DNA from: Lamellibrachia satsuma
Lineage: Eukaryota; Annelida; Polychaeta; Sabellida; Siboglinidae
Direction: 5' to 3'
Assembly: GCA_033239005.1 (NCBI GenBank)
Contig: BSQZ01000108.1
Span: 189,001 to 253,000, forward strand
DNA: 64,000 nucleotides
The notes below the pieces were generated by a model. The model saw only the letters and a program-made list of their open reading frames with translations. It ran no database searches and was not told where the DNA came from. Below are positions 1 to 63,700 of the stretch, one piece after another (the stretch's first letter is position 1; each line of letters begins with the position of its first letter). The position numbers and the translations under genes are program-made.

Positions 1-262
1 GGGCATCAAAGTGTATGAGAAAACTAAAATGATGTTCATTGGTCTATAACCATGTACAACAGTGTAGTTATACACTTTACCATATGGTTTTCTTACATCA
101 GTCCCTGACCAAAGGTGGTACCTCGTGGCTACTACTACGTCAGTCATGTACCTGTACCCCGGAACTTGTCTACCCAAGGACACATCTACCGCTGGACATG
201 ACAACTAATACCACCAGCATTTTTATTGCCATGTTTACTAATGAAGTCTTGTCTTTTCACAG

Positions 263-3200
263 GATTGACCAAGAAGATGTTGCCCAATTCTTCCCTCTTC
301 CCCGAGTCCTTGATGGGCTCTTCAAGCTTGCAAGCAACCTCTTTGGAATCACTGTCAAGGTCAGTGCAAGGTCACCCCAAGCATGTGTCATCTTGATCAT
401 TAAAGTGGTCGGGGTGAATGTTGTACACTAGTTTACTCCATGTTGGTTTAGCCCTTATCCCGCCTATGCGCCTCCGTAACCACCCATCTGGACTGGTTCA
501 CCTAGGGCTCCCCGGGAAAACTGGTGTTGTAGTATTTTAAATTAGCTATAAAAAAACATTCCAGTCACGTTTCACAAAAGAACTGGTAGCCATCTTGAAA
601 ATTATTATTTTATGAATTTGTCATTGGCAGGCAACAATTTTTTTATTTTAAGTAACCATCAGGATTGGATAATTGTTTTACCTGGGCAAAATTAACATAA
701 ATGGCTACGTATGCCACACAGGATTGTCTATGGTGCAGTTGATTATTTGTGTATAGCATGTTGCAGTTTATGTATTATTTTTCTCCATTCCATAAATTTC
801 ACTTCATGATCTGAAAATTAATTAATTGTAACAGCAATTTTAACAGCATATTCTATTCATACTTTAATTTCTGTGTACTGTGTAATTTATTTCAAATCAT
901 TTAATACATTGGTTGTTGAGATATCCTAATTTTAATGCAAGCAACGCGTGACATCAACTAAAATTGGCAACTATCTTGAAATTCCTTGCTCACAGTAGGG
1001 CAAGGAATGAGAAAGGGGCTACCAAAAGTTTGATCAGGACAGCCGTAATTTGTTTATTATTATCTAGCCTGGTATTTGTTGACATTGTTTAATCTGTCAA
1101 TCTGTTTCAGGACTGCTCCGGAAATGTGGACACATGGCACGATGATGTAAAATTCTACAGGATCTTTGACAAACAGAGTATGCATTCTGACAGATCTGGC
1201 AATCACTGTCCTCTTGTTTTGGGTTCTTCCTGACAAAAAAGGGCAACATGAAATAATGGTAGAATGATCCATTACAGATTAAACACTCATCTGCATCTGC
1301 AGATTTATGTCTGTGATAAGTATTTGACTTAATAAGTGGTATATTAGTTATGATGAAAGCCTGGAAGAATGTGGTTTAACAACTCTAGAGACAAGGAGGG
1401 TAAGAGGAGATCAAATTTAAGTTTTTAAGATGCTCAATGGGTATGAAATCATTGATAGAAATTTGTTTTTCTCACTCAAGAAAGATAGTAGAACTGGAGG
1501 ACATGAAGTAACATTAGTAAAGGATCAGTGTAGATTGGATATCAGGAAGTGCTCGGTGTCACAGAGGACAATAAATGAATGGAACAAATTATCTACAGAT
1601 TGTTGACGCATATCTCAGGAGGGCGGGTTACACGTAGATGAACAACTGTTGGACTCTCGATAAGCGAATGGCTTCTTTGTCCACTTGCCATCTTGGCCTT
1701 TGCCTCGGATCAGTCTGATCTTGTTAAATCTTATCAAAATGCTGAGTCATTGTATAACATCACATAAACTTCTGCTAACAAACACAGCCATATTATGATA
1801 CAATTTTCTAAAATGACATTCGCCTCAGAAAGTTAATTCTGTTCTACCTTGTCCAACAACCATTTTTGACCAACATTGCCTGTAAAAGATTCTTACATCC
1901 ATTCTGTAATACTTGTGTTTACAAGAAACACTTCTATTTTCCAAAAGTTGTAGCATAAATATAACTCATTGTCAGGTAGATATTTTCTGATTGAGGAATG
2001 TCTGGAATGGTAACAAAGTAGCTCCCTGTTGATACAATGTTTTTTGTTTAGGTGGGGAGGAGCTGTCAGCCTTCTACCTTGACCCTTACGCCCGTCCCGC
2101 CCAGAAGTTGGGAGGTGCATGGATGGAAGCAGGCCGTGGTACGTTAACCTTGTTATCTCACTGAAATGTAACACAGATGTCTGGTGCACTTGGGAATTCT
2201 TGAAAATTGTACATATTATTATTGAAAGAATAGAGAATTTGTACGTTGCCTAGAATGATTAGATCTGCAAATAAATTTTAATAACATTTTAGAAAAACAT
2301 GTCTCGAACCCACTGACCTGATGGCTCACAGACAAAGACATTTGATCAAGAACAGCTTATTTTCCCTGATATAAAAAATGGGATCTGGTGGAAAACTTCC
2401 AGTATAATTTTATTAGAAATTGTATCCAGGTGGGACATCTCTTAACACCTTTATCTTAACACTTCAGTCCTATTTTATGTCCACTGTCTTGGTTTCAAAT
2501 TTCCGGGACAGAGTTAGACAAGGCCTAAACACCTGGCAACATGTGCTCCCAGTAACATTCACGATAACTGTTAAAAATGGTTTTCACTGGCCATGAAATC
2601 ACTCACTATTGTTGTTGTCCCTTTACAGAACGGAGCAAGCTCATTGGTACAAAGCCGTTCAGTTACATGAACCTCAACCTGGCGCCACCTTTTGGCAGTC
2701 GACCATCCTTGCTGACTGTTGAGGACATGTCGACTGTCTTCTATGAGGTTAGTCAGAGGGCTTGTTGGTTGTTCAATAAGTTATTTCTTGTGAGTCGTTT
2801 CCCCAAATATTATCATCATTTCTCAGAACATCACTGACATTCCTCAGAGATGTCATCATCATCATTCGTCAGGACAATGTCATCATCCTGTAGCACATCG
2901 CCATCATAATCATCATCTCTCGTCATCATATCTCATCATCATCATCATCCCTCAGAACAATATTATCATCATCCCTCAGAACATTGTAACATAATGGACA
3001 AGTTTCAGAGGACTTCCAGATTGGAACCGGAGTATGACAGGGCTGCTTGCTATCTCCACTGCTCTTTCTGATAGCCATAGACTGGACAATGAAAAGATCT
3101 ACAGAACACCATCATACTGGGATCCACTGGAACTTGTTCTCACAACTAGAAGACCTAGATTTTGCAGATGATCTAGCACCACTCTCAGTACCAGATCCTC

Positions 3201-6151
3201 ACAACCCATCTCACTAGAAAGTGGTACTGTTGAGGAAGTACAAGACTTCATCTACCTCAGGAGCAACATCAGTACAAATGGTGGAGCTGACAAAGATGTG
3301 GAACTACGCATCAATAAAGCTCATCATGCCTTCAGAACCCTAAGCCCAGTGTGGCTCTCTTCCCAACTATCCATAAACAACAAGATCCGCATTTTCAACA
3401 CCAACGTTAAACAGTTCTTCTCTGTGGCTGTGAAACGTGGAAAACTACTCAGTCTCTCAACAACAAACTCCAAGTCCTCATCAGCAGTTACCTCCGATAT
3501 ATTTCTAAGGTATGGTGGCTTAACAAAATATCAAATAAAGAGCTCTGGAAACAGGAAGAAATAAGCGGTACAAACAAGAGGAGAAAATGGAGCTGGATTG
3601 GCCACACACTCGGAAAAGATCCAACAAATACAACCAAACAAGCACTGGACTATAACCCACAAGGAAAGAGAAGACAAGGAAGGCCAAAAATCAACTATAG
3701 ATGCTCCACACTACAAGATATTGATAAAGTGGGGGTCACCTGGCAAGAGGCCAAAGCTCTAGCCCAGAAGAGAGTGAGGTGGAGAAACATGGCTATGCTC
3801 CTGAAGGAGCCAAGAGGATTAAGTAAGTTAGTCAGAACATTGTCACCATCTTCATCATCATGTCTACTGTCCTGTGTTCCTCCAGTTTGGCCATGGCCTG
3901 CAGCAGATGTTGACCACTGTGCCTTATAGCGAGGTGGCCGGCCAGCGCAACGTGGAGTGGGACGCCCTGCAGGTGTGTGCCCGCCTCATGTCCCTGTTCC
4001 TCTACACTCCCGAGACACTGCGTTCTCTCAGCTCACATTACGACACCGGAGAACACATGTCAGACACAATGATCGACACAATCCTCAGGAGTGAGTGCTG
4101 GTCATGCTTCTATCTTCTGACAGTTACATTCGGTTTACTTCAATTTGTCTGTGGCAACACTGATGGAACCATAATTATCACTTCTGTATAATGCTTCCAC
4201 TGGAAGCAGTTGTTGAGGATGTTACCTTTTTAAAATCGTGCTGCCATTAAATGCCTATTATTAGGTTTTAAAACTTACACCTATTTTTAAATTAGCACTT
4301 TAACAGTAATGGTTTTGCTAATGATTTGTTTACTTAGTGTCATGACAGATAAAAAGATTGCCCAAGCCATTGTACTCTTGAATTACTTATTTAGAATTTT
4401 GCTCTGAATATTAAATGAAAATCTGTAAAAGATATAGCATTTAAGCATGGATAGTGATTTGTTGTAGTAGACATCTTCGTGATAAAGCTCTATGTTGTGA
4501 ACCAGTGTCCATTAGTAATAAGCATGGCTGATTAGGGAGGATGTCATAAAACGTATTTGTTATGTACTTGTTCAAACTCTGCCATCACTCATCAGTTTCT
4601 AGCGAGCAGGTGACTAGTAACCACCACTGTGAAGTTGTTCTTAGAAATGGTTTTGGCACACACTTATTGAGTCTAACATTGAATGACTGATTGATTTGTT
4701 GAAATTTGATTTTAGTGCAAAAATACATGTGTGGCTTTGACATGATGAGACAACTCTACTACAGTGCCTACGACATGGAGATGTATGTGAGGTAGGTGTA
4801 CAGATGTATGTGAGGTGAGTACTTGGATGTGTGTGTGTGTGTGAGGTGTGTACTTGGATGTTTGCGTGCAGTGGGTACACGGGTGTATGTGAGGTGGGTA
4901 CATGGATGTGTGTGTGTGTATGTCTGAGGTGGGTACATTGTGAGGTGAGTACACAGTAGTATAGGGGTGTATGTGAGGGGGGTACACAGATGTGTATCAC
5001 TGTATGTCAAGTTCATGTTCCTGTTCCCAGTGATGACCATTGGTATGCGACAATGCAGCGACTGTGGCCAGAGTTTGTCCCGATGCCCCTCCACGAGGAG
5101 GACAACCATCCCTGCTCCTTCACGGCCATCTTCTCCGACCAGTATCCCGCCGCCTACTACTCCGTCAAATGGGCTGAGGTGGCGTACCCTTCTCTTCCAA
5201 ATATATTACCTTATGTTCAAGTAGAATTGTTCAAGTTGAGACCAGACTTGCATGATGTACTTTCACCAAGTTGACTGGATAAATAGTGTAAGAACTGTGT
5301 TAGTCGTCAGTTAACTCTAGTACCATATATATATATTTTTATTTTTTAAATGCAAAAAAATTTATAAATGTTAATGGAAATTGCATATTATGGAGTAAAG
5401 CCACATACGAGTGCGATTTAATTTTCAGGATATTTTTAATGCTTGTAGTAGTTTATAAATGCAGATATTGAGTAGTTTGTTTGAATATACGAATCATTCC
5501 ATAGATGGTAGCAGCAGACGTCTTCAAGGCCTTCACAGAGGCAGGTCTGGACAATCCTGAGAAACAGGCGGTGGTAGGACAAAGGTCAGTGTTGAACAAC
5601 ATTTAGATGACTAGATGTACAGACTTATGTTGAATCGTTAAAGGTCAATTTACATGAAAAATATTTGTAAATTTTTTTTTGTTTGCCAACCCAGAGTTGC
5701 ACCAGCAAGAATCAGGCAAGTAAACACTCACACAAGACTGATTAACAAGGTCGCTAACGATTGTTTTGAACCAGTGGCCTATCAGCGACTTAAACACGTG
5801 CATCCCATCAGCGATTTTCATCAAAGCTAAAATCTAGGCAAAAATCACTCATGTAATCATAGTGTATGTGTATTTGTGGCTGTTCATGATTGTCCATCTG
5901 GTGTTCATGCCATAATTATGTGCAAGATAACATTATTTATGAAGTGTGACTGAAATAACCAAACATGCTATAATTATCTCATCTCTGATTGGCGAATAAA
6001 TTCTCAGTGATTTGTTTTATTCTTTTGCAGGTTTCGTGACACGTTCCTGTCACTAGGTGGTGGTGTTCCAGCCGGAGAGGTGTTTAGGAAATTCCGAGGT
6101 CGTGACCCTGACCAGGAAGCTTACATCGAGTACTACAAATCGCAGTCGTGA
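263..6151 (+). CDS. M3-family oligopeptidase A-like protein, C-terminal exons; probable pseudopeptidase
   Basis: Nine coding exons can be joined in phase with GT-AG borders: 263-359, 1111-1177, 2052-2138, 2629-2747, 3886-4090, 4716-4791, 5031-5178, 5505-5584 and 6031-6151 (TGA). The 5' exons lie left of the window. The joined product aligns with the C-terminal half of bacterial oligopeptidase A: WHDDVKFYRIFD, AFYLDPYAR, GGAWME, then FGHGLQQML, HYDTGEHM, AYYSVKWAE and the C-terminal FRGRDPDQEA. This family normally cleaves short peptides with one zinc held by HExxH and a downstream Glu. Here the motif across the exon 4/5 junction reads YEFGH (TAT at 2742), the third zinc ligand Glu is Gln (CAG at 3970), and the substrate-binding His before the Tyr pair is Ala (GCC at 5125). 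The frame is intact over all exons, so the protein is probably made but is unlikely to be an active peptidase. Family assignment is sure; loss of activity is inferred. Confidence 0.88.
1355..1735 (+). mobile_element. LINE 3' fragment in M3 gene intron
   Basis: Translation gives broken pieces of the non-LTR C-terminal region: TRRVRGDQI, LFFSLKKDSR, DQCRLDIRK and INEWNKLS, with stops between them. The same family occurs in the opposite orientation at 35634-35912, 38342-38850 and 39270-39590. It lies in the intron between exons 2 and 3 of the M3 gene and is non-functional. Confidence 0.75.
2825..2987. repeat. Imperfect (ATC)n / CTCAGAACA repeat
   Basis: Simple TCA/ATC triplets alternate with copies of a CTCAGAACA motif in the intron after M3 exon 4. 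The LINE fragment that follows has inserted into this repeat. Confidence 0.7.
2988..3831 (+). mobile_element. 5'-truncated LINE reverse transcriptase with 12-bp target duplication
   Basis: Translated pieces in shifting frames show RT and C-terminal blocks of a non-LTR element: QGCLLSPLLFLIAIDW, LDFADDLAPLS (the FADD box), VQDFIYLRSNISTNGG, then WKQEEISGTNKRRKWSWIGH and the final KALAQKRVRWRNMA. The 12-bp sequence TCAGAACATTGT lies at 2976-2987 and again at 3832-3843, as expected for a target-site duplication. Stops and frameshifts make the copy dead. It sits between exons 4 and 5 of the M3 gene, directly before the exon holding the second half of the zinc motif. Confidence 0.8.
4781..4990. 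repeat. Minisatellite derived from the exon 6/intron junction of the M3 gene
   Basis: Degenerate units with the core ATGTATGTGAGGTGGGTAC and (GT)n runs repeat about five times, beginning with the last bases of exon 6 and its donor site at 4792. Several units contain a donor-like GTGAGT or GTGGGT. Confidence 0.7.
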
Positions 6152-7936
6152 ATCTGCAATTTTCAAGGAAAAATTACAATTGACTTTATATAGCACGTGA
6201 CACTGGAGGACAGGTTGTGGTGTTGCAACTGAAAAATATATTCAGATCGTGTAACAATGCTCACAGTATCCTCTGTATGGATGAGAGCATATTGGAACTG
6301 TACAGCAAGTTATTGTAACATAGAAATGTGTTGCACGTCCATCATCCAGAATTCCTTGTAGGAAAATAATGTTGTGTGTATCTGGATAAACGTATCGTTA
6401 GACTAACTTCTTTCTAGAAGATTCTAATGAGCGATTACGATATACTTGGTACTTTAGTAATATGCATTTGTTGAAAATTTTTTGCATTACACAAAACGAG
6501 TAACTGAAGAGTGCCACATTCACAGAATACGTGCAATGACTTCAGCTGTGATATCATGTTGAAGTTTGTAGTGAAAACAAGTTAGAAAATCTTGACGTGT
6601 AGCGATGATATGAAGCAAGATTTAAAATAATGCATATTACAAGGTTACACCAACACAGACAGATGGCTACGTGTGACGCCATGAATTGTGCTGTTTTGTT
6701 GATGATGAGGCTGTTAATTAAAGAGAAAGTGGAAATCAACCGAATGGAGGTTTTTACAAAACATTGAATGCACTTGTTAGTTATGCGCTTCATTAAAAAA
6801 TTTCTTTATTATTTTCACTTTTTGCAGCAATAACAGACTGTGATTGAAACTGGTGTGCAGCTTTAAATGGATTTTCATAAAAGAACGTCCAACATGGTAT
6901 GTGTATTTACACAGTGTGTTCAAGTTGATTCACATTTCTCTGTTTTGTGGCATCAAAACATAGAAACAACCTTTCTCTCCTATTTTACACTCATAATAAA
7001 TAAATCTGATGTGCTGGAAAGAAATTTGGTACTTAACTTTATGTATGCAAAAATAATATGTTATCAGTTCTAAATAACCAGAGATTTATGAAAACTTACA
7101 TCTTGCTTGGAGCACGCTTGTACATGCAAATCAAATCAAACACAGTGTGTTCGTATCATCTTTGAGCAACTGTTGTTTACCTGTCATTGCCAACAAGTTG
7201 AAGGACTATCTATAGCAACTCATGTCAAAATGTCATGTTTTAACCAAAGGGGCCATGTCAAAATGTCATGTTTTAACCAAAAGGGTCATGTCAAAATGGC
7301 ATGTTTTGTCTGAGTGCAATTGATTTAATCCCACCATCCATTTCAGCACAATTTATTAAAAAGTACAATATTAGGATATATACAATCCAATTTATCTTGG
7401 TAATTTGTAAGAGAAGTTAAGCCAGGACTCATCATTGAAGCAAATGTTTGAAATAGTGTGTGTAAAATAATATTAATCGTGTAATAATAAAATAATTAGT
7501 AATGATTTTTATCTCATTAAACTGATTACACTTCGTGTGTGAACTGGTGTGTGTGAACCAACGATATGACCCCCAAGATTCGTTCTAGATCCAACATTCA
7601 ATTTACTGCTGGGGGCTGGACCAACCATGACATCACACTTCAAGTACAACTCAGGTGTCCACATCAGATGCACATCACTCGTGATGACGTCACTATTTTC
7701 TGTACAGGTCAATTAATCTATACTGCATTACACAATGTGTTTGATACCACTGCTTATTAAACGTTTGTAAATATCATACTGTGTTTATTGTTTACATGAG
7801 CCATGTCAGATAATTGTGAAGAATATAATTACGTGACTGAGTGTACATATATCTATGCAGGCTTGCATATAAATGTATTAAGAGCTATATAAAAACGATT
7901 CATTCTTCGACATGTGCATTAAGAAATAATGGATAA
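6152..7936. other. 3' flank of the M3 gene and convergent intergenic stretch
   Basis: AT-rich sequence with no supported coding region. It should contain the M3 3' UTR; a possible AATAAA lies in the run ATAATAAATAAATC near 6990. A 33-bp tandem repeat is at 7221-7305. The M3 gene and ADSL converge here. Confidence 0.5.
7221..7305. repeat. 33-bp tandem repeat, about 2.6 copies
   Basis: The motif CATGTCAAAATGTCATGTTT followed by TAACCAAAGGGGC is repeated, with the last copy partial. The period is divisible by three, so a short ORF reads through it; that ORF has no other support. Confidence 0.75.
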
Positions 7937-8319: not shown

Positions 8320-11300
8320 TCAGAGACTGAGTTGCGCGACGGGTGTGAGGGCAGCACAGAACGGCTGCAGGGCTGGAGTGACCTCTTCCTTCAGGAACCT
8401 CTCCACCTACAGGTGCAATGGCAATCTGTTAGAAATCACAACTAAACAACCAAACTGGTGTTGGGAGGTAATAAACATATCACTTGTCCCCTTGTCATGT
8501 TGCTATATCAATGTATCACTTTGTCACCCTTACATCTCACCTGCTGTGGGGAGCGTCCAATGAAGGTGCTTGCGTCAAGCAGGGAGTCAAGAATAGGGAT
8601 TATGGGAGCAAAGTAGGGATCTGCGCGGATCCTTGCCACCAGATCATTCTCCCCTCCTTCTTCCTTCACAACCCGGGCTGCTTCCTGGGACAACTGCCGG
8701 ATCTTTTCATGGCACGTCTGCCGGGAAACAGCAACACAGACCATGTCACACATTGACAACACAGACCATACGTCACACACAGACAACACAGACCATACGT
8801 CACACACTGACAACACAGACCATACGTAACACACTGACAACACAGACCATACATAACACACTGACAACACTTCTACTGAGAGAGACCTCAATGTATAGCA
8901 GTCAGACATGCTATTCTGAAGATATTATTTATATGGCCTTACAGATTGAGAACAAAATAACTACTTAAAGAAAAAATTATAGGCCATTGAATGAAAGATG
9001 ATGCAAAAAATGTATATATATATGGAATTTTTTCAACAAGATTTAATGAAAATTGGCATAAACATTATGTAAAACTACATAACTTCATCACAATCACCTA
9101 TCTGTTGCCCCTATTTTCACCATGATTACCGTCAACTGCCCTGTACTTTCACCACAATAATTATTACCTGCCCCCTATTTTCACCATGATTACCTGTCTG
9201 TTGCCCCCTGCTTTCACCATGGCCATGATGATGTTTTCGGTTGCCATGAAGGGAAGCTCCTGGTCAATGTGTCTCTGGACCACCTGGTGACACACGTGTG
9301 ATGTGGGAAAACAAACTGCACAGGATGGTTTCATAAAATAAATGATATCATGCCACAATCTGAACAGTCCTTTCTTTCACTCTGAAGATATGCCAAACGA
9401 GTTAAAAGTTCCTGGTTGTGAAAAAGCTGATCACAATATCCAGATTTACAAAGTGATGAACTTATTTAATGATACCATGTTACCCTTAAGTACTGCCGAA
9501 AAAACAGATCTACCAAACAATGCATAATTTTATTTTATCCAACTAATTCTTTCACTATTTCCGTATGAAAGCATGAGTGAGTGAGTGAGTGAGTGAGTTT
9601 AATTTCGGAATTGAATACAGAACATAGATGAAAGACAAAAATATACAATGCACAGTCGAGCCTCGATTTTAGACCACACTGCATGCGAGGTGCATTAGGT
9701 GTCTACTAGCATCAACGAGCATTACTTTTAAATATCACACCCTGTTGAATTTTAACTGAATAAAATACATGTACGTAAACCGTTATGGAATAGATCTGCT
9801 ACGATGATGATGTGCTGGACCAATAGGCCTACGAATAAAAAATAATAACCTGGATCTGAGCAGCCGAAAACATGATTTGACACAGGTAGTATGTAAACTG
9901 ATAAAACATAGAAAACGTCATGAAAACGATGCAATGGAAGCATGCCATTTCACCCTAGTGTTAAACTGGTATTGCATACTAAATGCATTTGTGAATCTTG
10001 ATAGCGGTTTACAAATACAAACCATCAAAGCGAAGCCAGCAACAGTGATTGATGTCGGCGGCAGAGCAAAACAAACAACACGTTGACACTCGTTTATTTA
10101 CATTGTTCACCTAATGTTTCTTGAGAATTGTCGAACAATTCTAAGTAGGTTTACACAGACCCATTTGGCATTTCCCCCTGGTGGCAGAAAATTGGGGTTA
10201 ACGACCGACTGCCTTATATCCGAATCTGTGTAATAACGAGGCGCAACCGTATGAACATAACCATCGAGTTCAGCAGAAGAGGGGAACAGCTAGCACACGT
10301 ACAATGAACTATTTTCATGTAGTCACAACAGCTGTAGTATATTGTTAAACTAATAGTTCCTTCACCTTGGGGTAGACAACCATGCCCTCGCAGATGTTCT
10401 GCAGTGTGTTGAGCATCACGTCAGCTGTGAGGAAGGCTTCAGACAAACACAATCGTCTGAAGAAATGAGAAACATGATCAACAAACAGTTCAACATTATT
10501 CATCAGTTGGGGAAAATTGTAAGAAAAAAGTCTCACTGACAAGACTGAACGATACGAAGGGCATGGTAGAGGGTGTGGTACAAAGCATGGCACAGGGTGT
10601 GGTAGAGGGTATGGTATACAGTATGGTCCAGGGTGTGTTATAGGGTGTGGTACAGGGCATGGTCCAGGGTGTGGTACAGGGCATGATCAAAGGTGTGGTA
10701 CAGGGCATGGTCAAAGGTGTGGTACAGGGCATTATCAAAGGTGTGGTATAGGGTGTGGTACAGGGCATTATCAAAGGTGTGGTACAGGGCATTATCAAAT
10801 GTGTGGCATAGGGTGTGGTACAGGGCATTATCAAAGGTGTGGCATAGGGTGTGGTACAGGGCATGGTTAAAGGTGTGGCATAGGGTGTGGTACAGGGCAT
10901 GATCAAAGGTGTGGCATAGGGTGTGGTACAGGGCATGATCAAAGGTGTGGCATAGGGTGTAGTACAGGGCATGATCAAAGGTGTGGCATAGGGTGTGGTA
11001 CAGAGCATTATCAAAGGTGTGGCATAGGGTGTGGTACAGGGCATTATCAAAGGTGTGGCATAGGGTGTGGTACAGGGCATGGTCAAATGTGTGGCATAGG
11101 GTGTGGTACAGAGCATGGTCAAAGGTGTGGTATAGGGTGTGGTATAGGGTGTGGTACAGGGCATGATCAAAGGTGTGGTATAGGGTGTGGTACATGGCAT
11201 GGTCAAAGGTGTGGTACAGGGCATGGTCAAAGGTGTGGCATAGGGTGTGGTACAGGGCATGGTCAAAGGTGTGGCATAGGGTGTGGTACAGGGCATGGTC

Positions 11301-13566
11301 AAAGGTGTGGCATAGGGTGTGGTACAGGGCATGATCAAAGGTGTGGCATAGGGTGTGGTACAGGGCATGGTCAAAGGTGGGGTATAGGGTGAGGTACAGG
11401 GGATGGTCAAAGGTGTCGTACAGGGTGTGGTACAGGGCATGGTCATAGGTGTGGTATAGGGTGTGGTACAGGGCATGGTCAAAGGTGGGGTATAGGGTGT
11501 GGTACAGGGCATGGTCAAAGGTGTGGCATAGGATGTGGTACAAGGCATGATCAAAGGTGGGGTACAGGGCATTATCAAAGGTGGGGTATAGGGTGTGGTA
11601 CAGGGCATGGTCAAAGGTGTGGTACAGGACATGGTTAAAGGTGTGGTACAGGGCATGGTCAAAGGTGTGGTACAGGGCATGGTCCAGGGTGTGGTACAGG
11701 GCATGGTCCAGGGTTTGGCATTGGGTATGGTAGAGGGTGTGGTACACAGCATGATACAGGGCACGGTAGAGGGTGTGGTACACAGCATGGTCCAGGCACG
11801 GTAGAGGGTGTGGTACACAGCATAATACAGGACACGGTAGAGGGTGTGGTACACAGCATGATACAAGGCACGGTAGAGGGTGTGGTACACAGCATGGTCC
11901 TGGTACGGTAGAGGGTGTGGTACACAGCATGATACAGGGCATGGTAGAGGGTGTGCTACACAGCATGGTCCAGGTATGGTACACAGCATGATACAGGGCA
12001 CGGTAGAGGGTGTGGTACACAGCATGGTCCAGGTACGGTAGAGGGTATGGTACACAGCATGATACAGGGCACGGTAGAGGGTGTGCTACACAGCATGGTA
12101 CAGGGCACGGTAGAGGGTGTGGTACACAGCATGGTACAGGGCACGGTAGAGGGTGTGGTACACAGCATGGTCCAGGGCACAGTAGAGGGTGTGGTACACA
12201 GCATGGTCCAGGTACGGTAGTGGGTGTGGTACACAGCATGGTACAGGCCTACAGGGCATGGTAGAGGGTGTGGTACACAGCACGGTACAGGGCACGGTAG
12301 AGGGTGTGGTACACAACATAATACAGGGCATGGTAGAGGGTGTGGTACACAGCATGGTCCAGGGCATGGTAGAGGGTGTGATACACAGCATGGTCCAGGG
12401 TGTGATACACAGCATGGTCCAGGGCATGGTAGAGGGTGTGGTACAGAACATGATACAGGGCACGGTAGAGGGTGTGGTACACAGCATGGTCCAGGGCATG
12501 GTAGAGGGTGTGGTACACAGCATGGTCCAGGGCATGGTAGAGGGTGTGGTACACAGCGTGGTTCAGGTACGGTAGAGGGTGTGGTACACAGCAGGCCCAG
12601 GGTGTGGTATAGAGCATGATATAGAGCCTGCTTGAGCATGAACCTGTTGGCGCTGTCGTCCAACGTTCTCTCCATCCACTGGACGGAGTGAGTCATCAGA
12701 GGGTCCTGGACAAGTGTCATCAAGTGTCTTCCCAGGGCGCAGCACCGTTCTGATCGCATCGGGTTACGCTTGTATGGCATTGCACTGGACCCTGTATAAC
12801 AGAACAATATTATCACTATAGTTTCCCTTTGAGGCAAGGTATAGCTATACACATAATTTAATCCTACCCATACAATATTGTACATTTTACAGTTTTGAAG
12901 TGTCATATTTTTCATTGCATTTTTAAGATCCAGACTACAGAAAAAGGCCTTAACATCAAAAATAAAAAAAAATGTTCACAAGTGATCCAGACATAATCAA
13001 TAAAACATAAGGAGATTAAATATAACAACTATACTCATGTAACTATAATAGAGCAAACATATGTTTGTATGTGGTTATGTTAACGTTTTCCTCCTAGACC
13101 TCAGGTGCCAAACTTCCAGGAATTAATCTACGACCACACGAACGAAACGTAGCCTTTATTTTTTCGAAATACCCTGTATATCAACGGTACTTAGTGGTTT
13201 TTATGGTAAATCAAATGTTCGCTACGTAAAAATATTAACTTTCAACAATCGCAGAAACCATGTGCGCGTGTGGTGAATGCTTCGGTACATAAACCGTTTG
13301 AAAGTATGTAGCGCCATCTGGGTGGTTTATATTAATTATAGTAAAAAACATGCGTAGCAATTGTACATAACATCGACTAAGTTGCTTGGTGTGTATATCA
13401 CTTTCTGGGGACAGGCATTTTTGCTAGTTTAAATAATGCCATGTCACTAGGAAGCAGAAATAACAATGCTGTCTTATAATAAACATCTATATTCACCAAT
13501 CTGGTCCTTTTCAAAGGGCTCCTCGAGTTCCTTCATGCTGGCCAGCAGACGGACATCACTGCAGAT
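8320..13566 (-). CDS. ADSL: Adenylosuccinate lyase, last six exons
   Basis: Six minus-strand exons join in phase with GT-AG borders: 13566-13497, 12791-12644, 10456-10366, 9283-9194, 8717-8541 and 8406-8320 (TGA at 8322-8320). The product reads [20 protein letters not shown], then [60 protein letters not shown] and a C-terminal helix ending AQLSL, almost residue for residue like vertebrate ADSL. ADSL cleaves succinyl-AMP and SAICAR in cytosolic purine synthesis. The [10 protein letters not shown] block is the fumarase/aspartase superfamily signature loop with the catalytic Ser, and it is intact. The exons encoding the N-terminal half were not found to the right of 13566; they may lie beyond the ankyrin gene or outside the window. 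The intron between 12644 and 10456 carries a 2-kb minisatellite. Identity is secure; the gene is partial here. Confidence 0.93.
8735..8868. repeat. 27-bp minisatellite in ADSL intron
   Basis: About five copies of a 27-bp unit beginning ACAGACCATACGTCACACAC lie 18 bases upstream (on the gene strand) of the second-last ADSL exon. The period is a multiple of three, so ORFs on both strands read through it; they are not genes. Confidence 0.85.
9572..9600. repeat. (GAGT)n microsatellite
   Basis: A short run of about six GAGT units in the ADSL intron between the exons at 9283 and 10366. It is followed by TTTAATTTCGG, which may be the tail of a dispersed repeat. Confidence 0.6.
10560..12620. repeat. 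2-kb minisatellite built of 12-bp modules, in ADSL intron
   Basis: The array has two domains. From 10600 to about 11740 the 12-bp modules GGTGTGGTACAG, GGCATGGTCAAA and GGTGTGGCATAG combine into 24- and 36-bp units. From about 11740 to 12610 the dominant unit is GGTAGAGGGTGTGGTACACA plus GCATGGTCCAGGGCAT. Because the period is divisible by three, several frames stay open for up to about 530 codons on the minus strand, giving low-complexity products such as [12 protein letters not shown]. These are not supported as genes: composition is purely periodic, there is no start context, and the array sits entirely between two in-phase ADSL exons. Confidence 0.92.
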
Positions 13567-14789: not shown

Positions 14790-16307
14790 ATGATTAAGAG
14801 GACAGACAGTGGGATTACAGGAACAATGGAAGATTCCAGGGATACCAAGGCAGGGGAGAAGCTGCTAGAACGTGTGGCAGACAGCTACGTAGACGCAGCG
14901 GCCGAAGATGCAGTGAGGTCATTGGTACAGTTTGGAGAAGACGTCAACTACGTGGGAGCACCAGGGAGTAGGTACGAGGGAATGTTTCCGCTGATTCTCG
15001 CTGCTGCCGTCGGCAACATAAGCATCACCACAGTGCTGATAGATGCCAAGGTGGACGCAAAACAGTGCATCGCTGCAAGGTATTTCCATGAGACAATTGC
15101 CGCAACAGCCATACAACAGTGTTGTGTTGATGGGAATGTAGACCTAGCACGATTACTGGTTGACAAATCCGACCTGGAATGTGTCAACTGCAACGGTAAA
15201 ACTGCATTCTTACTGGCTGTTGAATCAGGCAATGCAGAACTGGTTGAGTATTTGGCACAGTCCGGATGCAACGTTAACAGTATTGATGAACTTGGAAACA
15301 ATGCTGTACATCTAGCAAGCAGGCTTCCAAGGAACCTATTCAGTAATATGGTACGCATTTTACAGCGCTGTCAGGTCAACTTCAACCATGTAAACAATGA
15401 CGGTTTGACGGCACTTAAACACGCCGCTATGGCAACGAATATTGATGTAGTAAAAGCAATGTTGAAAACAGGACTGTGCACTCTCAGCTGTGACAACAAA
15501 CACTTGTCGGAGCTCGAGGTAACTATCATCCTCGGTGAATCTGACAAAACAACACAGCTACTTAGTGACAAACAAGTTGACAACATCGACACGCTATGTC
15601 TGTTCATTCGACACACCGAAGCAACAGTTGTTGACAAACTACTACAGGAACACACGAAACTGCGAGGAAAAATAAACAACCTGGTCACAAACGCTGGTGG
15701 GATCACCCCACTATTAGCTGCTTGCATGATGGGTAGTACCGACATGGCTGAGGTGCTACTGCGTAACGGAGCACATCCCGGCCTGCCCTCTATCGGCGGG
15801 GTAACGCCCCTTAAGAAGGCTGTGCTCCTTAACCATCTACCACTTGTTCGCCTTCTACTGTCACATGAGGGAGCCACAGGTCATGTTGATGGCAAAGATG
15901 CCAAACTATTACAACTTGCGTTGTTTGTGAGAAATGTCAGCATGGCAAAGATACTCATCGGGTCAGGCTGTGTTTTGAAAATAGACGAGACATTACAAAA
16001 CCTGGTAGCCAAGACTTGCAACTACAACCTTCTAGCAGTGATTAATGCGGCTGGCCATCGGAGCTTTCTAGAAGCATTCCAAATCGCAAATGATAAGTTG
16101 AGATTTTCACAACAACAGGAAGACCGAAAATGCCAAGATGAACTTGAACACTGGTTGCAGTTTATCCTAAAGAACCCGACATCATTACAAGCTTCGTGTC
16201 GACTAGCGGTCCGCCAGCGTCTTGGTCGCCACCTGATGGTCAAATTGGGCAAACTGATGCTACCAATTACAATCAAGAACTACATCTTGTTGAGGGAGCA
16301 TGAATAA
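14790..16307 (+). CDS. Ankyrin-repeat SOCS-box protein (ASB-like), intronless
   Basis: A single uninterrupted frame of 505 codons. About nine ankyrin-type repeats span residues 45-410, the clearest being NGKTAFLLAVESGNAELVEY, DGLTALKHAAMATNIDVVKA and GGITPLLAACMMGSTDMAEV. The last 43 residues form a SOCS box: a BC box (SLQASCRLAVRQ) that should bind Elongin B/C, then LPITIKNYIL in the position of the Cul5 box. ASB proteins are substrate adaptors of Cullin-5 ubiquitin ligases, with the ankyrin repeats binding the substrate; the substrate here is unknown. Two starts are possible: ATG at 14790 (G at -3), or ATG at 14826 in a stronger context (A at -3, G at +4). The gene lies head-to-head with the last visible upstream ADSL exon, 1.2 kb away. 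The lack of introns suggests a retrocopy or a lineage-specific gene. Confidence 0.88.
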   Translation: MIKRTDSGITGTMEDSRDTKAGEKLLERVADSYVDAAAEDAVRSLVQFGEDVNYVGAPGSRYEGMFPLILAAAVGNISITTVLIDAKVDAKQCIAARYFHETIAATAIQQCCVDGNVDLARLLVDKSDLECVNCNGKTAFLLAVESGNAELVEYLAQSGCNVNSIDELGNNAVHLASRLPRNLFSNMVRILQRCQVNFNHVNNDGLTALKHAAMATNIDVVKAMLKTGLCTLSCDNKHLSELEVTIILGESDKTTQLLSDKQVDNIDTLCLFIRHTEATVVDKLLQEHTKLRGKINNLVTNAGGITPLLAACMMGSTDMAEVLLRNGAHPGLPSIGGVTPLKKAVLLNHLPLVRLLLSHEGATGHVDGKDAKLLQLALFVRNVSMAKILIGSGCVLKIDETLQNLVAKTCNYNLLAVINAAGHRSFLEAFQIANDKLRFSQQQEDRKCQDELEHWLQFILKNPTSLQASCRLAVRQRLGRHLMVKLGKLMLPITIKNYILLREHE

Positions 16308-26649: not shown

Positions 26650-28335
26650 TCTTTATTTTGGTTTATTTGCTAAGCCTAGAGAAAATATAAAAAATAAATA
26701 AAAACCTGAAACACTCAACAGAGTGTGTCAGTTATACAGTATCACTCAAAGTACAAACATGGAAATAAGATGGTGTGAAAACACGCTCTATGCACAATAT
26801 AATTTTACCAATACAATGTAAAGTATGTTAAGAAATATATATGATGGTTATACAAGATACACCATGATTACCTAAGAGTTATTCAAGATAAACCGTGAAT
26901 ACAATTGTATGTAATTTAACAAACACAATAAGTCTTTGCATCTAATGAATGCAATAATTACACAATCCACCATAACCATGCTCACCCAACACTATGCCAT
27001 TTCACTCACTACATGAGGCTCATTAATGCTAGTCCTATCAACTGTCAATGATACTCAGGCATAACCCCTCCTGCAACAGCATGATGAAATATGTCGTTTA
27101 GCCTTATCTGCTAAACTTATGATAGAAATTCACCTGTATCGTCTAATTAATGCATTTCACCTCAGTTTTGATGCAATTTTAATCAAAAACAGACGACCAT
27201 TAAAAGGAACTTACCGCCATCCAATCTGTCCTGTAAGTCACGAAAAATAACAGAAACAGCCAACAATACAAGACGTAAAACAAAAGGAGACCCCGGGTGC
27301 CAGGAGTAGGCATGGCTAATGACACAATTTTTGGGTACGTGGCATGAGCAGCTCAGCGGATTTTGTTGAAGTGCTTAGTTTGGGACCAAACTACTTACCA
27401 CTCGCACAACAAAAATCAAAAGTACAATAAGTGCTATTTGTCACAATGGTCCGAAAATGTGAATTAAAAACATGTTTTTTGAAACTTTTGGTGATTTTGA
27501 TTAATGTATGCTGGTGTGCAAACAATCAACGAATGTGACGAGACTTTATTATCTGTGCACTCAAAAATTATTTAACTATGCACAGGGAAGAGGATTATTT
27601 ACATCACTTCACACATTAATGAGAAATTAATAAAAAAATCTTATTTGTCAAAACAATGTGGGTTAGTTGAGCAGCGGATAAAGATTGAAGAGGAATGTTC
27701 TTTACCCCAAAATACATCAAGGAATTAATTTTTCCAAACAAATTGGGACATCGAATTGCTACAAGGCAACATATTAGCAGTTAATTACACTGGTTGCGAT
27801 TGGTCTATAAGTCTGTATTAATTGTGTCGACTTATTAATTATGCGTGTAGACTTGTCAGAGATGTGTTGTACCCATTGGGTAGACGTGTTGGCTGAGTTG
27901 TTATTAAATTTTAGTACAAGGCCTACGTAAATTGTACAAATAAAGCGTTTACCCAACTTATGCTACATTGTGGCTCAACTTACCCTACACAAAGTGTTAG
28001 CTGAGCCAGAATACCAACCCTATTTGAACTGGCTACATATAATTATCTATGCATACTAGATATATTATTATCTTGGTATAAAATTATCTACTAATAATAG
28101 TTTATGTGAATAAAAACAATTTTGACATATAAATATGACTGTACCCTAGACATCAAAAAGAATGAAAAATGGCTCAACTAACACTGCCTTTCTCTAATGT
28201 GTCGGTTGTGTTCTGGTCATAAATGACCTGCATAAAAATATAACAGCAATTTTTTCATTTGCAGAATTTCATGACGATGATGGATATTACTGAAAACTGA
28301 TCACTGAAGTCGTGCAAACATCACTGAAAGACAAC
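26650..28335. other. Intergenic DNA upstream of the transportin-like gene
   Basis: No coding region is supported. A pyrimidine tract ending TTTCATTTGCAG at about 28263 looks like a splice acceptor, so the following gene may have a 5' untranslated exon upstream. An in-frame TGA at 28291 precedes the start codon. Confidence 0.4.
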
Positions 28336-30807
28336 ATGATGCAAACCGCAGGATTTGGTGACCAAAACGATGCAAAAATCAACAGAAACAACAAAGTTAA
28401 TTTTCTCATGCCCACAACTCCAGAGTGTGGTGATCACCTGAGGCAGATTCGGAAACTCGACAAGACAGAGAGCGAGACTGCAGAGAATGAAAAGACAAAG
28501 AGCGAGACAACAGAGAGCGTGAGCCAAGAAGTGTCAAATACGATCAGTTTAGATCAGCTTGCAGTCGTATTAGAAAGCAATGATGAGGACGATGTGCGGC
28601 AGACACTCCAGCAGCTTGCGAGCCGCAAGGAGCCACTAGGTGGGATCGCAGCGAGTTCCGTCATTCCACAATGCCTTGAGCGGCTAGACCATCAAGACAT
28701 CGCTGTGCGAGCGAGTGCAATGCAGGTCATCACACAACAGTTGAACAGTCTGTCGATCGTAACTCACATCGAAACATTGTGCAAGCAGCTTGCACTGTCC
28801 ACTCTTCTTAATCTGAAATGCGGCCATGAGAACCAGTCGGACTTCGTGTCACTGCACACCAACATCTGTTCAGTTATATGTGATCTGCAGGCAAAATACC
28901 CAGACAAACTGATGCTACACTTCCGTCCAATATCACAATACCTGCTTGAGGCAACCAAGCAGAAGAATGATGCGATTGCAACAGCTGCGTGCAACTACTG
29001 GGCAAAGCTACAGTTGCCACCAGTTCCCATTAAGCCTACCAATCTGATGGAAAAGTGGATCCCTGCAGTGATGTCCAAACTACCAAGGCTGATTCCAGCC
29101 TTCATCAACTGCATGGTATACAAGAAGGAGCACATCACCAACTTGGAGGCGTTAACGAGCAGTAAGACCGGCGTCGTTGGCAAAAGGAGTTCGCCGGAGG
29201 AGATGGAGGCGTGCACAAACCTGCGTAACTTTGCTGCGCTCGGATTTGAGAACATCTGCCGGCTCTTCCAGAAGGAGGTGATTCCGATGTTTCGCACACA
29301 GCTCAAGAAGTGGCTCTTCAGCGAAAACTGGCTCAAGGTCGAAGCAATGGTCCTGGCGATTGCTGCATTCACAGAGGCACTTGGTACACCAAGTGACATG
29401 CAGGACATGTACAGCATGCTCATACCTCGCCTGCTTGATCTGTACTCGCATGGGAAGCCACTTGTGCGATCCATCACTTGCTTTGCAATGCAGCATTTCA
29501 TCAACATGCCAATGAAGCAAGTGAAGGACCCGTACCCCAAGATGTTGCGCTGCACGCTAAACCTACTGCGCGACAACTACTGCGAGGTCCAGGAGATGGC
29601 GCTGCAGTCACTGGCGTTGTTGCTGAAGCATCCACAGCGGGACATTGCTCCGTACGGGAAGAAGATCACCGAGGTGCTGATTAAGACCAATTCGTACATT
29701 CATGGCCAACTCAGGATCCTGTACTATGAATGCATCGCGCATGTCTTCGGGCGTGTCGGTGTGCTCTTGGATACATCACTGGCGATGAAGCTGGCCGAGT
29801 CTTTGATCAGTAACTGGGAGTCACTGAAGTGTAAGAGTGACACGCTCGAGGACACAGTGGACATGATGCAGCTGTGTCAGCCGCTGTGCGTCGTTGCAAA
29901 GTTCTCACCTGCGTTTGGAGGCAACAACGACATAATTCTAGAGAAGGTGGCGGCATACATGCAGCAGGTGGCCAAACTGGGGACTAACGGTTATCGCGAG
30001 GCGAAGAGCGACATGGTCACAGGACAGATGGTCGGCTATCTTGACCTGACGAGTGCAATGTTCGAGGGACAGCGTGACCAACTGACAGATGCCATTGTCA
30101 AGCACAACATGATACAACACACACTGGACATCCTCAGCAGCAGCAAGTTCGACGAGTCAGTTCAACAGAGTGCACTCGCACTGCTCGGTCACATGTGTAT
30201 CAACTGCTACAGTGCCATGGAAGACAAAATTGACAGCATCATCACAATCCTTATGCGACACGTTGAAAATGTCAACTGCTCGATAGCCATCATGAATAAC
30301 ACGTTGTGGACGCTGTCGTTTGTCATCAATAACTGTGACGTGGAGAAAGGCAAAGAGCTGCAGCGTCTGACTGACAACATACTCTTGCTGTTCATGAACA
30401 CAAACGGTGACGAAGGCGTCATCATCAACGCAGCCAATGCACTAATGAATATCGCTCGTAGGTGGCCCGAAGATATGCTCAAGGTGGTAGTGCGTGACGA
30501 TGTCTTCGTGCACCTCTGTGTGTTGCTGCAGAACGATTTCCCTGGACGCTATGAGAAGGCAAACATCTTCTACTGCCTATGCGAAGTCCTCACGCCGAAT
30601 GTGCGCAAGATCCCACGTATCGGTTGGATGTACTTCTGTATTGCGGCGGCCTTCCTAGATGACAGAAGTGCCAACCTGAACCATGCACTCAAGGTGTTGT
30701 TGCGCAACGTGCGTGGTTCGCTGGGTGATAGCGGCTGGAAGAAACTCAGCGAGGAACTCGGAAGTCAGTGTTCTTCAATACTGCGCAGGCGCTACCGGCT
30801 CTATTGA
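28336..30807 (+). CDS. Divergent intronless transportin (karyopherin beta-2)-like protein
   Basis: One open frame; the first in-frame ATG is at 28336 (A at -3), giving 823 residues. From about residue 110 it follows transportin-1 HEAT repeats to the C-terminus: LVRSITCFAMQHFIN (TNPO1 LVRSITCWTLSRYAH), VQEMALQSLALL, DESVQQSALALLGHMC, NNTLWTLSF, and LGDSGWKKLSEEL near the end. Transportin carries PY-NLS cargo into the nucleus and releases it with RanGTP. Two tryptophans that align with cargo-site tryptophans of TNPO1 are present (codons at 29815 and 30307). The N-terminal arch, about 180 residues that help bind Ran, is replaced by an unrelated charged segment, and the acidic HEAT-8 loop is replaced by a short stretch containing SSKTGVVGKRSSPEEME. 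Animal transportin genes have many introns, so this is probably an old retrocopy kept under selection. Confidence 0.85.
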   Translation: MMQTAGFGDQNDAKINRNNKVNFLMPTTPECGDHLRQIRKLDKTESETAENEKTKSETTESVSQEVSNTISLDQLAVVLESNDEDDVRQTLQQLASRKEPLGGIAASSVIPQCLERLDHQDIAVRASAMQVITQQLNSLSIVTHIETLCKQLALSTLLNLKCGHENQSDFVSLHTNICSVICDLQAKYPDKLMLHFRPISQYLLEATKQKNDAIATAACNYWAKLQLPPVPIKPTNLMEKWIPAVMSKLPRLIPAFINCMVYKKEHITNLEALTSSKTGVVGKRSSPEEMEACTNLRNFAALGFENICRLFQKEVIPMFRTQLKKWLFSENWLKVEAMVLAIAAFTEALGTPSDMQDMYSMLIPRLLDLYSHGKPLVRSITCFAMQHFINMPMKQVKDPYPKMLRCTLNLLRDNYCEVQEMALQSLALLLKHPQRDIAPYGKKITEVLIKTNSYIHGQLRILYYECIAHVFGRVGVLLDTSLAMKLAESLISNWESLKCKSDTLEDTVDMMQLCQPLCVVAKFSPAFGGNNDIILEKVAAYMQQVAKLGTNGYREAKSDMVTGQMVGYLDLTSAMFEGQRDQLTDAIVKHNMIQHTLDILSSSKFDESVQQSALALLGHMCINCYSAMEDKIDSIITILMRHVENVNCSIAIMNNTLWTLSFVINNCDVEKGKELQRLTDNILLLFMNTNGDEGVIINAANALMNIARRWPEDMLKVVVRDDVFVHLCVLLQNDFPGRYEKANIFYCLCEVLTPNVRKIPRIGWMYFCIAAAFLDDRSANLNHALKVLLRNVRGSLGDSGWKKLSEELGSQCSSILRRRYRLY

Positions 30808-33192: not shown

Positions 33193-33888
33193 ATGGCAGC
33201 CATGTTGTTATTGGTGCTAGTTGTTGTGTCGGTGAACGTTGCTGCGTCTGTTGAGCCGTGCTGTTATCCCGAGAAGGGAGAAGGCTTTGTACATTTCCTG
33301 GCAGAGATCAGCTCATCAAAGGTTGCTGCTGTCGCAAACTTCTCTGTCGATTACACTGCTCTCCAAGTGGCGGTGTCTGAGCGTGTGTACGTGAACGGTG
33401 CAATCAAAGACTATAAATTGACCCAAGACTACAAGGAGAAGAAAAGCTACATCATTTACAAATTTTTCGGTAAGCGAAAGTGCTTTGTTCAGACGATGTT
33501 CAAAGCTCTCACCCCGCGCTGCAGTCTCAGAAACGCTACCTACCTGGGCAGTAGCTACTACGGGGTAGGGGCATCCGCCCTCAAGACAAACACTTGGGGG
33601 TTTAATTTGACGAGAGGAGACCTAACAGCTGCTGGTGTAGCGGTGATCACACAGAACAACTGTATTCCCGTCAGTGAATTAATGAGGGGAACACGTCGCA
33701 ACAAACCATTCACTGAGGTTTTGGGGTTCTACAATTACACCTTGGGCATCAAGGACCCCGCAGTTTTTGTCCCACCGAAGATTTGTAGCAAGATGACGTC
33801 TACGAGAGCGCTCAAGATCCAATTGCCTGTGACAATGCAACGCGTCCTTGACTTTGTCACCATGCCAAGCGAGGAATTTAGGTGCTAA
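33193..33888 (+). CDS. Ependymin-related secreted protein (EPDR copy 1)
   Basis: 231 residues in one exon. Residues 1-20 are a signal peptide (MAAMLLLVLVVVSVNVAASV). The mature part starts with EPCCYPEKGEGF and carries the family's Cys pattern (CC, PRCSLRN, NNCIPV, KICSK), the block SSYYGVGASAL and N-glycosylation sites (NFS, NAT, NLT, NYT). Ependymin-family proteins are secreted, disulfide-linked glycoproteins with a lipid- or ligand-binding fold; the exact role here is unknown. This is the most diverged of the four intact copies and lacks the C-terminal tail (about 25 residues, ending ASDLKL) found in the others. ATG at 33193 fits the signal peptide and has a good context (ACCATGG). A poly(A) signal follows at 33935. 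Confidence 0.9.
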   Translation: MAAMLLLVLVVVSVNVAASVEPCCYPEKGEGFVHFLAEISSSKVAAVANFSVDYTALQVAVSERVYVNGAIKDYKLTQDYKEKKSYIIYKFFGKRKCFVQTMFKALTPRCSLRNATYLGSSYYGVGASALKTNTWGFNLTRGDLTAAGVAVITQNNCIPVSELMRGTRRNKPFTEVLGFYNYTLGIKDPAVFVPPKICSKMTSTRALKIQLPVTMQRVLDFVTMPSEEFRC

Positions 33889-43835: not shown

Positions 43836-44594
43836 ATGGCAGCCGTGTTGATGGTAATCTTTGTCACGGTGGTGACTGTCGTTGTGACGGAGAAGCCTTG
43901 CTGCTTCCCTGAGCAGTATGAAGGAATTCTTGGCATGGTGACACAAACATTGGGGCATAGACCATCGAAAATCGGTACAATGGCGAACTTCTCCATCGAC
44001 TACAAGAACGAGAAAATTGCAGTCTACGAACAGATCTATGCACATCGTCATACAATGAATATGTCATTGTTCATGGATTTCAAGGCAAAGAAACAGTATA
44101 CTGTGTTTTGGGAAAAGAAATGGTGCTGTGCTCTGAACGTGTCCCAGGTGATGCAGCCTCGATGCGCTCTTAACAATGCCACCTTCATGGGGAGTGCCTA
44201 CTACGGGGTGGGGGCGTCAGCGCTTGCTACAACAGCCTGGGGCATTCTTGTCTGTAAGCCTGGTCTCAAAGCGTCTGCAGAAATTGTTGTCACACAGAAA
44301 AACTGCATTCCTTTCAACCAGATCGTGATGGGACGATCTCATTTCACCCCTTTTCTCCAGATTGTGTCCTACTACAACAACACCCTGGGCATCCAGGACC
44401 CCGGGGTGTTCACCCCGCCAGACTTCTGCAAGAAAGAGGCGCAGGAATGTGGCCAGACCGTGGAGTTGCCAGCAGCAACGCAACATATCGTTGATTTCGT
44501 TACTGTGAAATCAGAGAACCCTGGGATGAAAGATGACCCTCTGGAAACAAACAAGGTTCTCAATGAAGATGGCGCATCCGACTTGAAGCTGTGA
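43836..44594 (+). CDS. Ependymin-related secreted protein (EPDR copy 2)
   Basis: 252 residues, single exon. Signal peptide MAAVLMVIFVTVVTVVVT, then EKPCCFPEQYEGILG. Further landmarks are ANFSIDYKNEKIAVYE, DFKAKKQYTVFWEKK, CCALNV, PRCALNNATFMGS, AYYGVGASAL, QKNCIPF, NNTLGIQDPGVF and FCKKEAQECG. Conserved Cys residues and N-glycosylation sequons (NFS, NMS, NVS, NAT, NNT) fit a secreted disulfide-bonded glycoprotein of the ependymin family. The C-terminal tail NPGMKDDPLETNKVL...ASDLKL is acidic. It is nearly identical to copy 3, flanks included, so the two arose by recent block duplication or are kept alike by gene conversion. A 38-bp satellite starts 250 bases after the stop. Confidence 0.92.
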   Translation: MAAVLMVIFVTVVTVVVTEKPCCFPEQYEGILGMVTQTLGHRPSKIGTMANFSIDYKNEKIAVYEQIYAHRHTMNMSLFMDFKAKKQYTVFWEKKWCCALNVSQVMQPRCALNNATFMGSAYYGVGASALATTAWGILVCKPGLKASAEIVVTQKNCIPFNQIVMGRSHFTPFLQIVSYYNNTLGIQDPGVFTPPDFCKKEAQECGQTVELPAATQHIVDFVTVKSENPGMKDDPLETNKVLNEDGASDLKL

Positions 44595-47438: not shown

Positions 47439-47560
47439 TTAGTAGACACGGTCCTTAAGATAGCCCCAACGGCAGAAGTCTGGCAGTGACAGATTGGGTG
47501 AATACATTGAATTAAAATGTATCTGCAGCACGGAGGCCAACATCTGGAGCACGTGCTGAA
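47439..47560 (-). mobile_element. Mariner-like transposase fragment fused to the LINE remnant
   Basis: The minus strand reads [25 protein letters not shown] then a stop, matching the piece at 43078-43150. It is joined in frame to the LINE RT at about 47560, producing a chimeric reading frame. Confidence 0.65.
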
Positions 47561-62930: not shown

Positions 62931-63700
62931 GCTTGAGATGCTGATGTTAACTCTCACCTTGCTGTCTGTTTATGTCAATGTGTACTGCCCAACTCACTGC
63001 AGTATGACTTCAAACTGTCCAAAGTCTGTAGAAGCAGCCAACTAATGATACTGTATATTCAACTGTCGTCACTCAGAGAAAGACACAGTGCAAGAACTGT
63101 CAGACTGTGACTGGCCTGCTGTATTAAGGAGCCCAGTTATACATACAGTCACCCCCCCACCCCGTACGGTCACATAGCTCACTGTCAGAGTCACACATAA
63201 CTACAGGCTGTACCTAAAAAATACTTCTTTCAATCCAAGCCAGGGTCATGCTGCACGCATGAATTATCATGAACACAATCCTAATACTGACCCACTGAGT
63301 GGGCCGCACATAATTCAAAGTGACAACTAGTTGACTGTTGAAAATTGCCTAAAAGAAACCAATGTCATTTCTGACCATCATTTACCGTACAGCTTAATTA
63401 CTACATAATTATGGCAGAATGTGACTTGTTTATGACCATTATTTACTACATCATTATAGCTGAATGTCATTTATTGAATCTTTTTTTATCATAATATGAA
63501 CAATGATGTTTTTTTGCAAAATATATCGGATGTTTGACCCTAAATGAAACAGGTGCTGTTTAGTACCAAACATGGAGGTTTTGAGGCATTCCCTAATGAC
63601 AACGGAGACAACACCATCCAGGGACCTGCTATATTTAGTCAGAGCAGACAGATCTGATGCAGTCAACCTCTTTCATACCACATAAAGGCATACAATACAC
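62931..63700. other. Upstream flank of EPDR copy 4
   Basis: To about 63130 it is the inverted counterpart of the leader and promoter of the other EPDR genes (ACTGTCGTCACTCAGAGAAA and so on). Beyond that no feature is supported. Confidence 0.5.

Follow-up and report, generated by a model that had tools for sequence, protein, structure and literature searches.

A probable pseudopeptidase of the oligopeptidase A type in the tubeworm Lamellibrachia satsuma and its protostome orthologues

Introduction

In metallopeptidases of family M3 the two histidines of the HExxH motif and a later glutamate bind zinc, and a later group of histidine and tyrosine residues binds the substrate; MEROPS also lists non-peptidase homologues in this family. 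Here we describe the 3' part of an oligopeptidase A-like gene in which these sites are changed, found in a 64,000-nucleotide stretch of the genome of the siboglinid tubeworm Lamellibrachia satsuma (assembly GCA_033239005.1, contig BSQZ01000108.1, positions 189,001 to 253,000 of the forward strand), the whole of which is called the window below. Among the described relatives, OOP is an organelle enzyme which cleaves peptides of 8-23 residues, according to the parts of PMC9291397 drawn on here; that paper covers OOP across eukaryotes, and an inactive animal OOP is unmentioned in those parts of its main text. Inactive metallopeptidases kept as partners are found in mitochondria, where MPP-alpha and, in some cases, the bc1 core proteins are of this sort in the portions of PMC11266112 and PMC9291397 used. 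Pseudopeptidases are known as a kind, and the literature searched showed no described M3 case: judged by titles and abstracts it holds no description of an inactive animal oligopeptidase A, and the main text of a review of pseudometallopeptidases (PMC11266112) makes no mention of the M3 family, M03, oligopeptidase, thimet or neurolysin. An M3 pseudopeptidase is apparently undescribed in that literature.

Results

The gene lies on the plus strand and its 3' part consists of nine exons in 263-6151 (Table 1), all with GT-AG borders and in phase, giving 332 codons and a TGA stop; the 5' half lies left of the window, and the full-length orthologue of Ridgeia piscesae has 722 amino acids. A preliminary description of the window had proposed a probable pseudopeptidase with three substituted active-site residues in a frame kept open over nine exons. 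The open frame stands, although the range assigned to it, 2629-5178, covers only four of the nine exons. The substitutions are real as well: the codons TAT and CAG are both present in the sequence, the motif YEFGH spans the GT-AG junction between exon 4 (ending in VFYE) and exon 5 (FGHGLQQ), and an alignment to Arabidopsis OOP (4ka8), gapless at the sites, sets WDALQVCAR against WDAVELPSQ and TAIFSDQY against SHIFAGGY, which bears out the change of the third ligand from Glu to Gln and of the substrate His to Ala. The catalytic Glu (the E of YEFGH) and the second His of the motif are unchanged; of the four later Tyr positions three are retained and the last is Val. By sequence, one zinc ligand of three remains and the substrate His is gone, and in place of the HExxH and later Glu of an active M3 metallopeptidase the window protein has YE..H, with the catalytic Glu, and Gln. 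Zinc binding has very probably been lost. The intron that splits the HExxH motif contains, at 3000-3830, a segment which by eye resembles a decayed non-long terminal repeat reverse transcriptase.

The best protein match, from R. piscesae, is 94% identical over the whole piece (20 of 332 residues differ) and has the same three substitutions, so they are not a sequencing error; P0002 (63% identical) and P0003 (60%) likewise read Y..Q..A. There is no alternative HE|gt donor on the plus strand in 2139-3885, nor are there contiguous HEFG codons on the plus strand in 1-6200, and a wrongly chosen exon was rejected together with the sequencing error. A change unique to Lamellibrachia was rejected too, losses at these sites being spread over the labelled protostome rows described below. 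A tblastn search with six orthologues gave no sign of another M3 copy in the window; the other matches were scattered, with E values of 1 or worse. Among the best 120 matches of the protein search that gave the Ridgeia orthologue there was no intact Ridgeia paralogue of the oligopeptidase A subfamily; intact echinoderm rows in that search scored 345-379 bits and the lowest row 309 bits.

The window protein belongs to M3 by its Peptidase_M3 domain (PF01432, E 7.6e-85) and by the fold predicted for its orthologue. Among NCBIfam models oligopeptidase A (230.5 bits) ranks above Dcp (148.3); the 230.5 bits for the oligopeptidase A equivalog NF008159 come from 332 amino acids of about 720 and compare with a curated cut-off of 927. 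The best solved relatives are the Arabidopsis organellar and cytosolic oligopeptidases A, with 4ka8 at 278.6 bits against 149.6 for K-26 dipeptidyl carboxypeptidase, 131.7 for neurolysin and 114.2 for Dcp. The scores therefore put the protein nearest to OpdA/OOP and apart from TOP/neurolysin and Dcp; the tree described below includes neither TOP nor Dcp rows and is therefore no test of this placement. The gene is best read as a siboglinid member of the protostome oligopeptidase A (OpdA/OOP-type, M3) orthologue group, which is apparently mostly single-copy among the matches listed.

The AlphaFold model of the Ridgeia orthologue (P0001, with 26 protostome rows) has a predicted local distance difference test score (pLDDT) of 88.5 and a predicted template modelling score of 0.87, with residues 1-33 under a pLDDT of 50. 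Foldseek and VIA-align match almost its full length to Arabidopsis TOP2 and OOP and to neurolysin and thimet oligopeptidase, and ACE and ACE2 chains score far lower. From these near full-length matches the two-lobed M3 body, and with it the M3 fold, is predicted to be intact in the Ridgeia orthologue.

To place these changes among relatives we used three protein searches, each giving its best 120 matches and together 324 distinct proteins, of which 117 rows were labelled (87 from protostomes, 20 from other animals and 10 from bacteria and algae) and aligned with the window. Labels were taken from listing names, some of them abbreviated or given for a higher group only; P0224 was labelled cnidarian by guess, and the quick tree groups it with corals and an anemone (84). 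Rows are not species, Babylonia and Batillaria each appearing twice, and should not be counted as independent events. The first zinc His, the catalytic Glu, the second His and the third Glu (H-E-H-E) are all kept in 30/30 non-protostome rows. At least one of them is lost in 85 of the 87 protostome rows; of the other two, Panulirus has a gap, and Priapulus alone has the complete set, although its substrate His is replaced by Gln and its LPSQ reads ICST. Across all 324 proteins, 179 have the full set and the Pro of LPSQ and 141 have lost both part of the set and the Pro, while three (Priapulus, P0055 and P0119) have the full set without the Pro, the combination of a partly lost set and a retained Pro does not occur, and one is gapped. 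The pattern of loss differs between clades. Counting the window, 25/25 lophotrochozoan rows have lost the third ligand Glu, and the catalytic Glu is kept in 20/25 and the first His in 11/25. In the 59 arthropod rows the catalytic Glu is kept in 1 of the 58 with a letter (Lys in 31, Arg in 21), and Glu stands at the third position in 45/58. The three tardigrade rows have lost the catalytic Glu, the second His and the third Glu. In Sinanodonta none of the four site residues is left, and in Haliotis one. Substitution of metal and catalytic residues is thus shared among orthologues whose fold, to judge from the Ridgeia model, is kept, and the earlier proposal of a pseudopeptidase is supported as the best reading, one that fits nearly all protostome rows and not the window gene alone. 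No row named as a vertebrate was found among the best 120 matches of one search, in which amphioxus was present, and none named as a nematode or Drosophila among the matches listed. The snail Babylonia areolata has two copies (P0010 and P0015), which read HE..H in one and RE..H in the other, with Gln for the third Glu in both, and could serve to compare decay following a duplication.

Protostome rows share further features. An N-terminal motif such as YYVLLPEIPPDTPETNPL, which lies outside the window, follows a pattern present in 75/87 protostome rows and in 0/30 others, several of which are partial at the N-terminus; the 12 misses are five with Phe for the first Tyr, one with Gln for Glu and six models without the motif. 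The 34-residue stretch bearing it had no sequence match in the PDB at E 10. Unlike the intact set, protostomes have residues C270, W277, W280, M326, R382, A648 and M657 (Ridgeia numbering) conserved at 85-100%. The leader before the motif has a median length of 27 residues, with on average 5.7 Arg plus Lys and 0.16 Asp plus Glu, and 65/73 leaders contain no Asp or Glu, against 18/1500 pieces of 27 residues from the rest of the proteins. By composition this basic leader looks like a mitochondrial presequence.

The tree was built from 78 of the 118 rows, left after thinning, with the site columns left out and with no unlabelled proteins, in a quick and a careful version, and was rooted on OpdA-type bacterial and algal rows. 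Protostomes (100/100, with a stem of 0.65), lophotrochozoans (100/100) and arthropods together with tardigrades (99/96) each form a single clade. Priapulus branches outside all other protostomes (97/91) and not, as the species tree would lead one to expect, with arthropods. By single-site parsimony, done with a simple script, the protostome node carries H, E, H and E. The lophotrochozoan node has HE..H but no longer the third Glu, and for the node of arthropods and tardigrades the reconstructed state is QK..H, followed by Asp at the third position. On the quick tree the sites need at least 10 changes for the first His, 7 for the catalytic Glu, 8 for the second His, 5 for the third Glu, 7 for the substrate His and a single one for the LPSQ Pro. 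Because the Pro changed once and the four zinc and catalytic residues several times each, LPSQ seems to have been rewritten earlier and in common, and catalysis seems to have been lost separately in each of the two clades. The older changes held in common, the loss of the Pro and the N-terminal motif of YYVLLPEIPPDT type, set off a single long stem leading to the protostomes.

The window contains several other features (Table 1). Three of the four ependymin-family genes are by eye close copies, in what seems a local expansion, and the minisatellite creates long spurious open reading frames (ORFs). In the stretch that resembles adenylosuccinate lyase exons the ORF at 11959-12915 had no Pfam match, and no Rfam match at gathering scores was found in the window.

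Table 1. Exons of the oligopeptidase A-like gene and other features of the window
Feature	Position	Strand	Remarks
Exon 1 in window	263..359	+	GT-AG borders, open frame; Ridgeia tblastn 88%; earlier exons left of window
Exon 2 in window	1111..1177	+	exon model; tblastn
Exon 3 in window	2052..2138	+	exon model; tblastn
Exon 4 in window	2629..2747	+	ends in VFYE; TAT at 2742-2744 in place of first zinc His; exon model, alignments
Exon 5 in window	3886..4090	+	starts FGHGLQQ; WDALQVCAR, CAG at 3970-3972 in place of third zinc ligand Glu; exon model, alignments
Exon 6 in window	4716..4791	+	exon model; tblastn
Exon 7 in window	5031..5178	+	TAIFSDQYPAAYYSV: substrate-site His to Ala, last of four Tyr to Val; exon model, alignments
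Exon 8 in window	5505..5584	+	exon model; tblastn
Exon 9 in window	6031..6151	+	includes TGA stop; tblastn 97.5% to Ridgeia
Exons beside the minisatellite	about 8330-12900	-	by eye like adenylosuccinate lyase
Minisatellite	10564-12609		36-bp units, 58 copies
Ankyrin-repeat ORF	14790-16307	+	505 amino acids, uninterrupted; ankyrin repeats and SOCS box
HEAT-repeat ORF	28312-30807	+	831 amino acids
Ependymin-family gene	33193-33888	+	single ORF; PF00811
Ependymin-family gene	43836-44594	+	single ORF; PF00811
Reverse transcriptase ORF	47439-48320	-	PF00078
Ependymin-family gene	53440-54198	+	single ORF; PF00811
Ependymin-family gene	62166-62957	-	single ORF; PF00811

Discussion

The reading that we favour, with a probability of roughly 0.6, is that oligopeptidase A of the protostome group is no longer a zinc peptidase, and that it took on a non-catalytic job, the binding of peptides or of a partner in mitochondria, before its catalytic residues decayed separately in different clades. 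That relatives in molluscs, annelids and arthropods have often lost different zinc residues suggests a protein retained for a job other than cutting, so that the window gene probably encodes part of a mitochondrial peptide- or partner-binding pseudopeptidase; we infer the loss of activity, the location and the new function alike.

A possible course of events, which we offer tentatively, begins in the protostome ancestor, where the second job would have been acquired along with the N-terminal motif, the rewritten LPSQ and the new conserved residues of the N-terminal half. The lophotrochozoan catalytic set would then have decayed, third ligand first, and separately that of arthropods and tardigrades, first His and catalytic Glu first. 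The basic leader, which lies outside the window and is carried by Ridgeia and other orthologues, would import the protein into mitochondria, where the two-lobed channel may still capture short peptides, for example cleaved presequences, and leave them uncut, or else the protein may be coupled to a partner by docking through the YYVLLPEIPPDT-type motif. Capture of peptides or docking to a partner in mitochondria is the mechanism that we would prefer. A dead M3 channel can hold a peptide, since a plant OOP mutant that has Gln in place of the catalytic Glu was crystallised together with an endogenous substrate (4ka7, by its title; its sequence reads HQFGH).

Several points weigh against this interpretation. 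Substrate-site residues are changed too, so the holding of peptides may also have been lost, and the docking role of the motif at residues 30-40 is a guess because the Ridgeia model is poorly defined over residues 1-33; the partial N-termini among the non-protostome rows soften the contrast in the motif as well. Non-protostome animals have basic leaders too, hence the leader is not special to protostomes. The intact set has 202 invariant columns, of which 73 fall below 50% in protostomes and 66 stay at 90% or more. Those below 50% make up 16/26 in residues 121-240 against 22/50 in 481-560; the loss does not concentrate around the active site, so relaxed constraint could explain some of the pattern. 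Priapulus has all four zinc and catalytic residues; its early branch helps the case for separate losses, and that position may be wrong. Finally, the Asp reconstructed at the arthropod and tardigrade node speaks against arthropods simply having kept the ligand, and the third-position Glu in most of them may be either retained or regained.

The alternative that survives best is nested in the favoured reading, so that the odds of the two overlap: the protein would be a structural or regulatory partner only, its fold completing or regulating an active peptidase or import component, and its channel would not need to bind peptide. MPP-alpha, an essential subunit which has lost its zinc motif, is a mitochondrial precedent in the consulted parts of PMC9291397 and PMC11266112, and the conserved, protostome-only N-terminal motif sits where the part modelled with confidence begins; but this motif could instead be an import or processing feature, and no partner is known. 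We regard this narrower role as conceivable, with the odds somewhat against it.

It is unlikely that the protein is still an enzyme, with an altered metal site formed by the second His, the Glu/Asp of VEWD and a new Cys and with weak or different chemistry. Such a site could draw on the second His, kept in 22/25 lophotrochozoan and 43/59 arthropod rows, on the Cys that replaces the LPSQ Pro in 25/25 lophotrochozoan rows, on EWD, which few protostome rows lack, and on the catalytic Glu that the window protein retains. However, the window protein lacks the first His and the third ligand, the catalytic Glu has become Lys or Arg in 52 of the 58 arthropod rows with a letter, and the replacements vary widely within clades, unlike those of a rebuilt active site. 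Slightly less likely still is relaxed constraint in a gene that is losing its function and heading to a pseudogene, for although protostome root-to-tip paths are longer (2.17 against 0.80), Sinanodonta and Haliotis have lost most or all site residues and vertebrate names are missing from the one search mentioned above, full-length proteins of about 720-750 amino acids occur in annelids, molluscs, a nemertean and arthropods, 35 columns are invariant across 26 diverse protostome rows, and the new residues are highly conserved.

If the pseudopeptidase reading is true, the protein named oligopeptidase A in several annelid, mollusc and insect records does not cut peptides, and inferences on mitochondrial peptide clearance which rest on that name are wrong for such animals. 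Two large clades would have brought one orthologue to the same inactive end through different first substitutions, a natural experiment on how a second function frees an active site. Insect models would allow a test of the claim, as would a direct comparison of echinoderm and annelid proteins made recombinantly.

Plant OOP and TOP2 and E. coli OpdA/PrlC are the nearest known systems, of the same subfamily by sequence and with the same predicted fold. Plant OOP is moreover an organelle enzyme, as the basic leader suggests for Ridgeia and other orthologues, but where the window protein has Y, Q, VCAR and A it retains HExxH, the third ligand Glu, the turn LPSQ and the His of the substrate site. 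MPP-alpha (M16B), in the parts of PMC11266112 and PMC9291397 drawn on, resembles the tubeworm protein in having lost the zinc motif and kept the fold within a mitochondrial peptide pathway, a location that is presumed for the tubeworm protein; it differs in family and fold and in partnering an active homologous subunit, whereas no active paralogue of its subfamily was listed for Ridgeia among the best 120 matches. The Drosophila M13 protein Goe (Gone early) is likewise an invertebrate metallopeptidase homologue with a replaced active site, suggested to be a ligand trap in the part of PMC11266112 used, but it is a membrane protein of M13, and the tubeworm protein belongs to M3 and to a group spread over protostomes.
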